Part shown: positions 25,819 through 48,326 of the stretch, piece after piece
Layout of the letters: each line of letters begins with the position of its first letter
Numbering within the stretch: the stretch's first letter is position 1
Assembly (NCBI GenBank): GCA_937907245.1
Contig: CALCUM010000002.1
Location: forward strand, 124,001-188,000
DNA: 64,000 nucleotides
Origin: an uncultured Rhodobiaceae bacterium
GTDB lineage: Bacteria; Pseudomonadota; Alphaproteobacteria; RS24
Direction: 5' to 3'
Position numbers and translations under genes: made by a program
The notes under the pieces: model-generated
What the model was told of the DNA's origin: nothing
The model's input: only the letters and a program-made list of their open reading frames with translations
Database searches by the model: none

Positions 25819-25874
25819 ACGCGAAGCCCTAAAGTAAAGTGGCGTAAGAGCTGAATAAGGTCTATAGGTAATCA

Positions 25875-26029
25875 CGGAACTGCCCGACGCGATAAATGCA
25901 TATAACGTTCGGGACCTTACGATTCTCTAGGGAGCTGTCCCTGAGGCGGGCCGTGGCCTGTTTCATACGGTGCCCACCTACTTATGTAGGTCTCCGAGGA
26001 TTACGCACCTACCGGTTGTGGCGGTTCCG
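25875..26029 (+). ncRNA. ssrS: 6S RNA
   Basis: Located between zapA and the 5-FCL gene, the classic synteny of ssrS. A long closing stem can be drawn: GGAACTGCC at 25876-25884 pairs with GGCGGTTCC at 26020-26028 (one G-U), and CGAC at 25885-25888 pairs with GTTG at 26015-26018. The apical hairpin ACCTAC/GTAGGT lies near 25976-25990 between C/G-rich flanks. 6S RNA mimics an open promoter and binds sigma-70 RNA polymerase in stationary phase. Ends are approximate. Confidence 0.8.
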
Positions 26030-26054
26030 CTTTGAAAGTGCCACTCATAATCCG

Positions 26055-42800: not shown

Positions 42801-43397
42801 TTAAGTTTGTGTGACAACCCGTTGCGCGGTTAATACGTCGACTTTTTGTGGGATTTTGTATTCAAAGTTGGTTAAGGAATCAATCAGGGTGTCCATATCC
42901 TTCCCGAAGGCATAGATCACTTTGTCGATACCTAGCACTGAACCTTGGTCTATTTTTTTATTCACTTTAATCGCTTCTTTTTCATCGGCAGTTATCAAAT
43001 AGCTCAGGGCGTGTCGGTGGACATGTCGGAGCATCATTCCTTCCAAGTCAGCTTGCTTGTAGCGTTCGCGCAAGCTCGTTTTTACGGAAAGAATGATTGG
43101 GCCACACTCTTCAGAATACAGCACTAAGTCGAAAATTATATTTGGAATGAAAGTGATTTCAGTTTGCACAAAAATAGGGGTTATTAGGTTTCGAAATAGC
43201 AAACAAGAAACAAGTGTTTCAAAGACGCTTCCGTTGAGCGATGAGGCGCCTTGCATATACTCACCCCAAGCCTGTTTTATGAAGGTGCTTGGGGTGGTCA
43301 TCGGGCGGGTCAAAATATCGCTATACTTTTCTTCGAAGATTTTAGATGTTCTGGATGCCCGAGAGGGAAGAAGTCCAATTTCTGTCAAATTAGTCAT
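42801..43397 (-). CDS. putative type II restriction endonuclease (PD-(D/E)XK-like)
   Basis: A 198-residue protein encoded directly behind a C5 cytosine methyltransferase, its ATG overlapping the methyltransferase TGA. It has a PD-(D/E)XK-like core: an early Glu in NGSVFETLVSCLL (about 56-68), IIFDLVLYSEECGPIILSVK (Asp, then xxK after the spacer), followed by TSLRERYKQADLEGMMLR. This resembles the active-site strand pair of small type II enzymes. Recognition site unknown. Composition is AT-richer than flanking core genes, a sign of transfer. Confidence 0.72.
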   Translation of the reverse strand: MTNLTEIGLLPSRASRTSKIFEEKYSDILTRPMTTPSTFIKQAWGEYMQGASSLNGSVFETLVSCLLFRNLITPIFVQTEITFIPNIIFDLVLYSEECGPIILSVKTSLRERYKQADLEGMMLRHVHRHALSYLITADEKEAIKVNKKIDQGSVLGIDKVIYAFGKDMDTLIDSLTNFEYKIPQKVDVLTAQRVVTQT

Positions 43398-44242
43398 AGC
43401 GAAGTCAATATTTGTTCTGCGTAATCTTGAATGGCCGGTATGGCCACTGAATTACCTAGTTGTTTCATGGCTTCCCGATGAGAGTTGGGAAAAATGAAAT
43501 CTGCCGGAAAGCCCTGCATCGCGGCGGCTTCTTTTGTCGAAAGTCGCCTAGCGTCTCCATCGACAATGTAGCCATCCCAATTATGCCGCCCATTGATAGG
43601 CGAATGGCGCCCGCCAACTCGAAGCGTGAAGCCGATGTCTCTAGGGCAGTCTCCGCCTAAAATATCGCTCATTGTTTTTTCAAGCTCGCGCTTTTTAGGG
43701 GGCGAGAAACCTTGGCCGTTGGCAAAGCCAACCATAAAGCAGCGTGGGCGATGCTGCGGTAACCCATGGTCGCTGGCGCGCACAATGAAGCTATGAAAGG
43801 AATAGGCAAGGTCGGTAATGCAGCTTTCGATTGTCTTCATCGTGTTGCCGTCATCGTGATTTTTAATGTGGCGCACATTCTCCAAGAAAAACGCTTTAGG
43901 TTTTTTATGTTTGAGAATTTGATGAATATTAAAAAACAACGTCCCGCGCGTGTCTTGGAACCCGCGCTTAAAGCCGCCCTGGCTAAACGGCTGGCACGGA
44001 AAGCCGGCACATAATACATCGTGGTCGGGTATCGCATCCAGCTCCAAGGTTGTGATGTCTTCATGCATCATTTCTGGATTGTGATTGAGCTTGTAAATGC
44101 CTCTTGCGGACTCGTCTATTTCGCAAGCCATAACGCATTTTGCGCCGAGGTTGGAAAGCGCGATATGGAACCCGCCAATGCCTGCGAATAAATCAATAAA
44201 AGTAACAGCTGGCTGTTTTTTCGGTTTTTTAATGCGCGCCAT
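43394..44242 (-). CDS. DNA (cytosine-5-)-methyltransferase
   Basis: A 282-residue C5 methyltransferase. Motif I is FIDLFAGIGGFHIALSNLGA, motif IV with the catalytic Cys is CAGFPCQPFSQGG, motif VI is FFLENVRHI, motif VIII is QHRPRCFMVGF, and motif X is KQLGNSVAIPAIQ. The target-recognition region between VIII and IX is short (about 50 residues), as in enzymes of four- to five-base specificity. The frame begins with a GTG at 44248. The ATG at 44242 has GGGGTG correctly spaced upstream and is preferred. It protects host DNA from the nuclease encoded next in the operon. Confidence 0.93.
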   Translation of the reverse strand: MARIKKPKKQPAVTFIDLFAGIGGFHIALSNLGAKCVMACEIDESARGIYKLNHNPEMMHEDITTLELDAIPDHDVLCAGFPCQPFSQGGFKRGFQDTRGTLFFNIHQILKHKKPKAFFLENVRHIKNHDDGNTMKTIESCITDLAYSFHSFIVRASDHGLPQHRPRCFMVGFANGQGFSPPKKRELEKTMSDILGGDCPRDIGFTLRVGGRHSPINGRHNWDGYIVDGDARRLSTKEAAAMQGFPADFIFPNSHREAMKQLGNSVAIPAIQDYAEQILTSL

Positions 44243-44510
44243 TTTCACCCCGTTTTTAGATTTTATTAGTAGGTGTATTCAGTCGTGCCGGAATTCGCAT
44301 GGAGCAGCAAGCAACCTAGGGTTGTATATTTTTGGAATGGATATGATTGCTGCTGGCCGCGCGCGTGATTCAATCCCGATTGCCTGTTGCAAACGAGATG
44401 ACTTCTTCCTAGTCTTGAAGTCGAAATAAAAACAACGCGTTAAGCGGTTTGTCGCCTTTGGTTTGTCTGTTGCTTTTGTATAGCCCTCGCTACTTTATGT
44501 GGAGGAAATG
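44243..44510. promoter_or_regulatory. divergent intergenic region between the methyltransferase and the FRG-TPR gene
   Basis: 268 bp that must contain the leftward promoter of the RM operon and the rightward promoter of the FRG-TPR gene. I could not identify a convincing controller-protein (C-box) repeat or a sigma-70 match. No small ORF with a ribosome-binding site is evident, so a separate C protein gene seems absent. Confidence 0.35.
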
Positions 44511-46137: not shown

Positions 46138-46548
46138 TCTGCTAGCCTTTTCTTATCAACGCGCGAATGGTGCGTTGCTGGGGTCACTAGCCTCTGTTCC
46201 AAAGCCGCAATTTGTATTGCGTATGTGGCTTAACGCTTTCGGCGTTAGGCCTTTTTTTATAAATTGCTGCAAAAATCCGTTCACTCCGCTTTGTCGGGGT
46301 GACGGCGGAATAAGGTTTCGACTGAATACGTCGTAGCCATTCTTTGGACTGGCTTAGTGCACCCCGACACCTGCGAAAGCGGGTGTCGGTTTTTGCGTTT
46401 GAGTTGGGGGTAAGGGTTGAATAAGGCGAACTCCAGGCCGGAGCCCGCCGAATAGGCCCTAGGTGAGGAAAACGCAAACTGCCGTTAAGAAGCACGCGCG
46501 CAAACCTCACACCGTGAAGCCCCCAGCACCCGCAAAGCCGTTTTCGCC
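46138..46548 (+). ncRNA. structured intergenic element, copy 1 (candidate non-coding RNA)
   Basis: First of two related copies, 479 bp apart, between the FRG-TPR gene and serC. Hairpin A: GGCTTAACGC (46227-46236) with GCGTTAGGCC (46242-46251), one G-U, then seven T. Hairpin B: CCGACACCTGC (46364-46374) with GCGGGTGTCGG (46379-46389) around a GAAA tetraloop, then five T. Conserved linkers include GACTGAATACGTCGT. No plausible ORF shared by both copies. Hairpin A could also terminate the FRG-TPR transcript. Strand chosen from the GAAA loop. Confidence 0.55.
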
Positions 46549-46616
46549 ACCTCTCCGCAAGCCAGTTTTGCCCGTTGAGAAATTGCTATATCTGCCCCTT
46601 TATTTCCAAAAAAACT

Positions 46617-47028
46617 TCTGCTAGTGTCCGGCCTTCAGCGTACGAATGGTGCGTTGTTGGGGCCACTATCCCCTACCCAGAGCCGCAACTTGTATTGCGT
46701 ATGTGGCTTAACGTTTTCGCGTTAAGCCTTTTTTTATAAATTGCTGCGAAAATCCGTTCACTCCACTTTGTCGGGGTGGCGACGGAATAAGGTTCCGACT
46801 GAATACGTCGTGGCCACTCTCTTGGTTGGTCTTAGTGCGCCCCGACACCTGTGAAAACAGGTGTCGGATTGTGCGATTAGGTTGGGGGTAAGAGTTAAAT
46901 AAGGCGACCTTGTTGGCCCAGGATCGTTGAATAAACTCTAGGTGAGTTGGCCGCAAAGCGCCATTAAAAGCGTTCGCGGCAAACCCGCTTTAAGAAAGCC
47001 CCTAACACCCACAAGCCGATTTTTACGC
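46617..47028 (+). ncRNA. structured intergenic element, copy 2 (candidate non-coding RNA)
   Basis: Second copy. Hairpin A is GGCTTAACG (46705-46713) with CGTTAAGCC (46720-46728), where a U-A pair replaces the U-G of copy 1. Hairpin B is CCGACACCTGT (46842-46852) with ACAGGTGTCGG (46857-46867) around the same GAAA loop. Its closing pair is U-A where copy 1 has C-G, a compensatory double change. The T-run after hairpin B is lost, so the stem is conserved independently of terminator function. Confidence 0.55.
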
Positions 47029-47083
47029 AAAGTCGAGCAAAATTCCCCCCAAAAGAAACTCGTTCCAAAGTTGACGACTCTCA

Positions 47084-47152
47084 TCATCCCGCCTATATCG
47101 GTAAGTGGGACACCTCTCCCCAACGAGAGGCAACGATCTGAAAGGGTTGCGA
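47084..47152 (+). promoter_or_regulatory. serC leader element
   Basis: The 70 bases before serC fold into consecutive hairpins: TCCC...GGGA (47087-47110), CCTCTC/GAGAGG (47113-47130), and GCAAC/GTTGC (47130-47150) that encloses the AAAGGG Shine-Dalgarno. This layout and the GTAAGTGGGA...CCTCTCC...GAGAGGCAAC wording resemble, from memory, the serC motif (Rfam SerC leader) found upstream of serC in Alphaproteobacteria. The mechanism of that motif is not established here. Confidence 0.68.
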
Positions 47153-47153
47153 T

Positions 47154-48326
47154 ATGACAACTTTGACGAAACCGGACATGCGTCCGGCAAACCCTAATTT
47201 TTCTTCTGGGCCATGTGCAAAACGCCCAGGGTTTTCCTTACAAGCTTTAAATGACGCGGTGCTTGGCCGGTCGCATCGCTCGAAACCGGGCAAGGCGAAA
47301 CTGGCCGAAGCCATCGACCGCACGCGTGCGGTTTTGGGCGTGCCAGATGACTATCACATCGGCATCGTACCCGCCTCCGACACTGGCGCCTATGAAATGG
47401 CCATGTGGTCTATGCTCGGCCAACGTGGCCTCGATATTCTGGCTTGGGAAAGCTTCGGCTCTGGTTGGGTCACCGATGTGGTGAAACAATTAAAGCTCGA
47501 CGATGTGCGCATCATGGAAGCCGACTACGGCCATCTGCCTGATTTAAGCGCCGTCGATTTCTCTCGCGATGTGGCCTTCACTTGGAACGGCACCACGGCC
47601 GGCGTTCGGGTGCCAAACGGCGACTGGATTAGCGATACCCGCGAAGGCCTAACGCTGTGCGATGCCACCTCCGCCGCCTTCGCCATGGATTTGGCTTGGG
47701 ATAAGTTGGATGTCACCACCTATAGCTGGCAAAAAGTGCTGGGCGGGGAAGCCGCCCACGGCATGCTAATTTTAAGCCCGCGCGCCGTCGCTCGCCTCGA
47801 AAGCTACACCCCCGCTTGGCCGCTGCCCAAAGTGTTCCGCCTGACCAAAGGCGGCAAGCTTATTGAGGGTATCTTCAAAGGCGAGACCATCAACACGCCG
47901 TCCATGTTGGCCGTGGAAGATTATCTCGACACCCTAAAATGGGCCGAAAGCATCGGCAGCCTATCTGGCCTTCTGGGTCGGGTGGCCGACAATAATAAAG
48001 CCTTGAACGACTGGGTAGCCAAAACCGATTGGGTGGCCAACCTATGCCAAGACGAAGCCAATCAGTCGACCACGTCGGTCTGCTTGCAAATCGTCGATGC
48101 CGAAGTGGTGGCCATGGCGCCAGAAGCACAAAGCGCTTTGGCCAAAAAAATCGCCAGCCTTCTGGATACAGAAGCCGTGGCCTATGACATCGGCGCCTAT
48201 CGCGATGCCCCTGCGGGCTTGCGAATTTGGGCCGGCGCGACGGTGGAAGCATCCGACCTCGCAAACCTAACTCCGTGGCTCGATTGGGCCTTCGAAACAG
48301 CCAAAATGGAGGCACAAAATGCCTAA
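47154..48326 (+). CDS. serC: phosphoserine aminotransferase
   Basis: A 390-residue PLP aminotransferase (3-phosphohydroxypyruvate + Glu to phosphoserine) of the alphaproteobacterial type. It has [20 protein letters not shown] at the N-terminus, [28 protein letters not shown] with the PLP-binding Asp, and the Schiff-base Lys in [15 protein letters not shown] (about 200). It overlaps serA by eight bases, making a serine operon controlled by the leader upstream. Confidence 0.96.

Follow-up and report, generated by a model that had tools for sequence, protein, structure and literature searches.

In phages P1 and P7, the antisense RNA C4 binds the ant mRNA around its ribosome-binding site (PMC12197685), and RNase P cleaves C4 at the 5' end of helix P1 (PMC5320573). 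The phage P1 record (L322) has the order a1 (756-762), b1 (770-777), C4 (844-920), a2 (924-930), b2 (953-960) and icd (971), with a promoter annotated ahead of a1-b1. An isrK-like terminator lies there between b1 and C4, and the a1b1-terminator segment scores 35.1 bits with the isrK model (RF01394). isrK itself, from the Gifsy-1 prophage, is a terminator-ended segment ahead of a longer regulatory transcript and has dual coding and regulatory roles. Another small RNA, sRNA-Xcc1 (RF02221), has been described as a trans-acting sRNA, which counts against a C4-like reading of its relatives, and its Rfam entry treats it as an sRNA gene rather than as one component of a C4-type unit. It was detected by Northern blot as an RNA of about 88 nt (PMC2996969), and in Xanthomonas integrons it lies upstream of symE (PMC12444791). 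In our literature search, which did not extend to the 2011 sRNA-Xcc1 paper, C4 antisense RNA and sRNA-Xcc1 were named together in a single paper, and there as separate RNAs.

We analysed a window of 64,000 nucleotides from an uncultured Rhodobiaceae bacterium, whose genome comprises 1.80 Mb in 3 contigs. Its close relatives are Rhodobiaceae MAGs, and alphaproteobacterium IMCC14465 belongs to the same family. Between its FRG-TPR gene and serC the window holds an element in two copies, each of which is, in our judgement, probably a C4-type antisense RNA unit, present here in an ORF-less form.

Two copies of a structured unit beside serC

Sequence comparison and a repeat search bear out the duplication reported by the first-pass annotation. 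Copy 1 (about 46138-46545) and copy 2 (about 46617-47028) are each about 400 bp long, lie at an offset of 477-479 bp and are 77.5% identical over 440 columns. The ORF check agrees that no ORF is common to both, and neither copy is followed by one. Across 20 aligned units the general order is extended -10 element, 5' stem, variable segment, GCAATT hairpin, T-run terminator, module B and hairpin B (Table 1 gives the window features). Positions T8, G9, A12 and T16 of the -10 element, corresponding to its TG and to -11A/-7T, are at least 90% conserved in these units. Module B consists of helices P1, P2 (with two facing GAATA motifs) and P3, and hairpin B re-uses the 3' strand of P1. In copy 1, helix P1 pairs 46293-46301 with 46360-46368 and is followed by ACC.

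Table 1. Positions of the predicted parts of both copies in the window
Feature	Position	Strand	Basis or remark
Copy 1 extended -10 promoter-like element (TG-n-TAGCCT)	46140-46148	+	About 7 nt 5' of 5' stem; predicted
Copy 1 domain A 5' stem-loop (CAACGCGC/GTGCGTTG)	46157-46177	+	5 of 5 counted pairs change on both sides, 21 units
Copy 1 a1b1-like segment (CACTAGCC..TCCAAAG)	46185-46204	+	Complementary to 46342-46359
Copy 1 domain A conserved GCAATTTGTATTGC hairpin	46207-46220	+	Alignments and pair counts
Copy 1 terminator hairpin A with T run	46227-46258	+	Sequence; helix 97% paired, 4 double-change pairs
Copy 1 module B, C4-like/RF02221-like three-way junction	46293-46371	+	R1 model, full-length subthreshold RF02221 match, covariation
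Copy 1 antisense strand (P3 loop CTTTGGA, J3/1 GGCTTAGTG)	46342-46359	+	Permutation tests, duplex energy
Copy 1 hairpin B with T run, terminator-like	46364-46394	+	Uses helix P1 3' strand; alternative pairing covaries
Copy 1 module D, longer three-way junction with module B topology and paired GAATA motifs	46403-46529	+	MFE fold, z -3.7
Copy 2 extended -10 promoter-like element (TG-c-TAGTGT)	46619-46627	+	Alignment
Copy 2 a1b1-like segment (CACTA..CCCAGAG)	46664-46682	+	Duplex with own antisense strand -20.4 kcal/mol, best of the 4 units
Copy 2 terminator hairpin A with T run	46705-46736	+	Sequence
Copy 2 module B	46770-46849	+	R1 101.2 bits; RF02221 28.3 bits
Copy 2 antisense strand (CTCTTGG..TTAGTG)	46819-46837	+	Own-unit duplex
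Copy 2 hairpin B without T run	46842-46867	+	Sequence
Copy 2 module D	46881-47010	+	Fold z -4.4; same junction as copy 1

The first-pass annotation had singled out two hairpins that survive the divergence of the copies, and its details hold. Hairpin B retains CCGACACCTG and its partner in both copies, and its loop-closing pair changes from C-G in copy 1 to U-A in copy 2 around the same GAAA loop. A second pair of hairpin B goes from U-G to U-A, as does one in hairpin A. The T run 3' of hairpin B in copy 1 (46390-46394) is gone from copy 2, and the linker GACTGAATACGTCGT is the same in both (46320-46334 and 46798-46812). The proposal of a structured RNA with real covariation gains support from pair-covariation counts above essentially all of 500 shuffles and above all slid controls, one measure in domain A being equalled by 1 of the 500, and from single-copy folds with z of -7.5 and -6.0. 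The P1 3' strand has two pairings that exclude each other, and both covary beyond shuffles and slid controls. An account by intrinsic terminators only failed, with conserved modules lying outside both terminators and hairpin B of copy 2 having no T run. A function beyond termination, as had been suggested, is supported by the place of the two hairpins inside a larger conserved unit.

The serC leader (RF00517, 47103-47154, 68.7 bits) is separate from the duplicated element and is preceded by a promoter-like sequence of its own, TTGACG..TATATC (region 47080-47154), which makes serC an unlikely target of the element. Four genomes of another genus (loci L174, L177, L181 and L184) carry a unit of domain A and module B upstream of serC, and this site, common to two genera, is perhaps an old location. 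Adjoining the FRG-TPR gene, at 42801-44248, lies a restriction-modification pair, consisting of a C5 cytosine methylase (2e-76) and a weak BsaWI-like endonuclease. Since this pair is present in genome G005 but absent from the region compared in genome G001, which has another gene there, the FRG-TPR side of serC looks like a variable hotspot.

A dispersed family related to sRNA-Xcc1

The comparison with related genomes proposed in the first-pass annotation was run by BLASTN over 97 relatives; related DNA occurs in 16 of them, all of the same family and including the bacterium's own genome. Covariance models were likewise built and searched. R1, which covers module B and hairpin B, has 73 matches, spread over 21 of the 28 family genomes; R2, which covers domain A, has 44, in 18 of the 28. 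The own genome holds four R1 units, namely the two window copies, C2:486676 and C2:285763, and across the class R1 finds loci in 24 of 385 genomes. IMCC14465 has units as well (L166-L168). At the place of module D, two relatives (L144 and L198) have modules that score 43.9 and 28.6 bits with R1. Among viral contigs, 11 exact matches to a 16-mer of domain A were found, none of them with domain A, and a pattern search for module B gave no match.

Units of the family are multi-copy and lie mostly at differing sites in related genomes, beside variable genes, as would be expected of a dispersed repeat of the REP or MITE kind that has no function as RNA. Such a repeat is hardly credible here, given the promoter-like element, the terminators, the strand-specific association with ORFs, and the compensatory changes found in several helices and in antisense/target pairs.

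At the gathering threshold, Rfam matched only the serC leader, tRNA and 6S RNA in the window, the last at 25874-26031 with 60.6 bits. Matches of BSR0602, snoR138 and isrK were weak and of no use. The first-pass annotation had called the RNA undescribed. This stands for domain A and for the tandem ORF-less form, which match no Rfam family; it does not stand for module B, a distant RF02221 member within a unit organised like the phage P1 C4 system. The RF02221 match to the window is itself subthreshold (28.3 and 25.5 bits for the two copies, the gathering score being 53), and its alignment spans model positions 1-87. Intermediates with the same full-length architecture connect the two. Several class loci detected by R1 match RF02221 at 33-56 bits, one of them above the cut-off (L222, 56.2 bits) and another at 51.7 bits (L226), and the own-genome unit at C2:285776 reaches 34.8 bits. 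The RF02221 model itself has matches in 47 of the 385 genomes searched from the class and in 58 of the 399 from the phylum. We regard module B as a diverged member of the RF02221 superfamily, joined through these intermediates. It shares with sRNA-Xcc1 the full-length alignment, members among the relatives, a P2 internal loop with AATA motifs and the layout of P3 and J3/1. It differs in scoring below the gathering score in the window, and in being preceded by a lineage-specific domain A and followed by hairpin B and module D.

Antisense complementarity and downstream genes

RNA duplex energies were calculated for the P3/J3-1 strand of module B against flanking DNA and set against 5000 permutations of the cognate pairs, using non-redundant main sets and controls on the same loci. 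With the permutation correcting only partly for relatedness, the strand pairs with its own upstream 83 nt at z -18 (118 units) and with its own downstream 83 nt at z -7.5 (120 units), in both cases with 0 of 5000 permutations as good. Controls gave z -1.6 (P2 arm against downstream DNA) and z -1.3 (strand against DNA 300 nt away). The upstream comparison had begun as a control and gave the strongest signal, and it was hence retested on independent loci. In 29 other loci picked by RF02221 across the phylum, one of which, an alphaproteobacterial locus, had escaped exclusion by class, z was -11.1 upstream and -5.1 downstream, and controls stayed within 0.8. By an ungapped score over 148 nt upstream, z was 15.9 for the class and 6.1 for set f1 (each 0/5000), against 1.3 and 2.7 for the corresponding P2-arm controls, the latter value counting against the signal in f1.

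In the own genome, each of the 4 antisense strands finds its best partner in the upstream segment of its own unit; for copy 1 the own-unit duplex has -21.0 kcal/mol, the best of the 4 units. The pairing is also retained through a compensatory change, A46202-U46344 in copy 1 corresponding to G46680-C46821 in copy 2. A pattern search of the own genome for further copies of the copy-1 target matched only the copy-1 unit itself. At the ORF-less locus L193 (genome G003, C179:13998), the module B antisense strand is strongly complementary to the P2 arm of the module D that comes after it (-35 kcal/mol).

Relatives often carry an ORF after the unit. In 79% of the units in the class and 40% of those in f1, an ORF of 38 codons or more begins 30-110 nt 3' of helix P1 and has a Shine-Dalgarno-like motif; in control windows, shifted or on the reverse strand, the figure is 2-15%. 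Pairing of the antisense strand with the 45 nt before the start codon was specific, with z -3.6 for the class (0/5000) and z -3.0 for the ORF-bearing f1 units (10/5000; n=14); over the entire f1 set, complementarity to downstream DNA does not reach significance, and the leader complementarity picked out by eye in f1 was dropped as not significant over all its units. The products include HTH_3, KilA-N, Bro-N, P22_AR_N and Phage_pRha-like domains as well as small membrane-like and lipoprotein-like proteins. For the HTH proteins, the matches in PHROGs were no more than weak ones of repressor type. In one genome, paralogous ORFs (M..MGDNGQALPALS..; L281-L283), with no Pfam name, each have their own RF02221 RNA ahead, and their leaders show matching changes near the Shine-Dalgarno motif.

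The competition between P1 and hairpin B was at first taken for a riboswitch platform, a reading abandoned in view of the permutation tests. Module B would then be the aptamer of a metabolite-sensing riboswitch or attenuator, with helix P1 competing with hairpin B as expression platform. The mutual exclusion and covariation of these two helices would fit, as would the nearly invariant paired GAATA internal loop of P2 and the leader position ahead of diverse ORFs. However, the most variable part, P3/J3-1, is the one that matches its own upstream and downstream segments in antisense fashion, and the downstream genes have no common pathway, many of them encoding phage antirepressors or HTH proteins, so that we think a riboswitch quite improbable.

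A purely trans-acting sRNA gene, as described for sRNA-Xcc1, whose nearness to ORFs would be incidental, agrees with the ORF-less window copies and with the Northern blot already cited. We also judge it unlikely, as 79% of class units have an ORF with a Shine-Dalgarno motif at a fixed spacing, the strand is complementary to its own leader and upstream segment, and phage P1 sets a precedent that combines a cis arrangement with a released RNA.

Likeness to C4 and proposed working of the unit

We return to the C4-type antisense unit. The C4 system (RF01695/RF03163) has the order promoter, a1b1, terminator, antisense RNA, a2b2, ORF, and the window matches it up to the missing ORF. The window antisense strand is complementary to an a1b1-like segment upstream; a complementary a2b2 at the ribosome-binding site of the downstream ORF is present in ORF-bearing relatives. 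Both systems share the P1/P2/P3 layout, carry the antisense strand in the P3 loop and in the joint between P3 and P1, and have ACC 3' of helix P1 and, in relatives, antirepressor genes downstream. Here, in contrast to C4, helix P1 is shorter, P2 is elaborate with paired GAATA/AATA loops, the downstream genes are highly varied and the window copies are ORF-less. There is also no significant covariance-model match: RF01695 and RF03163 did not match the window even at E 10, and R1 gave phage P1 C4 only 7.6 bits, though its best hit was exactly C4. Since covariance models do not join RF01695 and the window family, our claim is limited to working like C4, not to being RF01695. Domain A takes the place of the isrK-like segment, without sequence match to isrK and without the dual roles of that RNA being seen here.

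A transcript would start at the extended -10 element and pass through domain A, with its a1b1-like target segment and intrinsic terminator. Transcripts that read through would include module B, which would present the antisense strand in the P3 loop and J3/1, where it can pair with a1b1 upstream on the same transcript. In ORF-bearing units, the strand can also pair with the leader before the start codon and would thereby prevent translation, the role that C4 has towards icd/ant in phage P1. The 3' strand of helix P1 may alternatively form hairpin B, a second terminator-like hairpin. NCC stands directly 3' of helix P1 in 79 units; as NCC(A) has this position in RNase P substrates, module B may be cut out by RNase P and then act in trans. 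From the missing ORF and the presence of module D, we infer that the window copies are stand-alone antisense RNAs or relics.

It is tempting to propose, though we hold this as somewhat less than an even chance, that RF02221 and its relatives are a second, far wider C4-type branch, taken over by bacteria for many small genes (HTH, membrane, lipoprotein), with the ORF-less tandem copies of this family acting in trans against related mobile units, as immunity or decoy RNAs. On the C4-type reading, a family so far classed as an independent sRNA linked to virulence would be recast as the core of C4-type units with predictable targets. The rule by which the P3/J3-1 strand has its partners in a1b1 and in the leader of the following ORF would predict the targets of many unannotated units across Pseudomonadota, and C4-type control would reach beyond a few phages to small-genome marine alphaproteobacteria.
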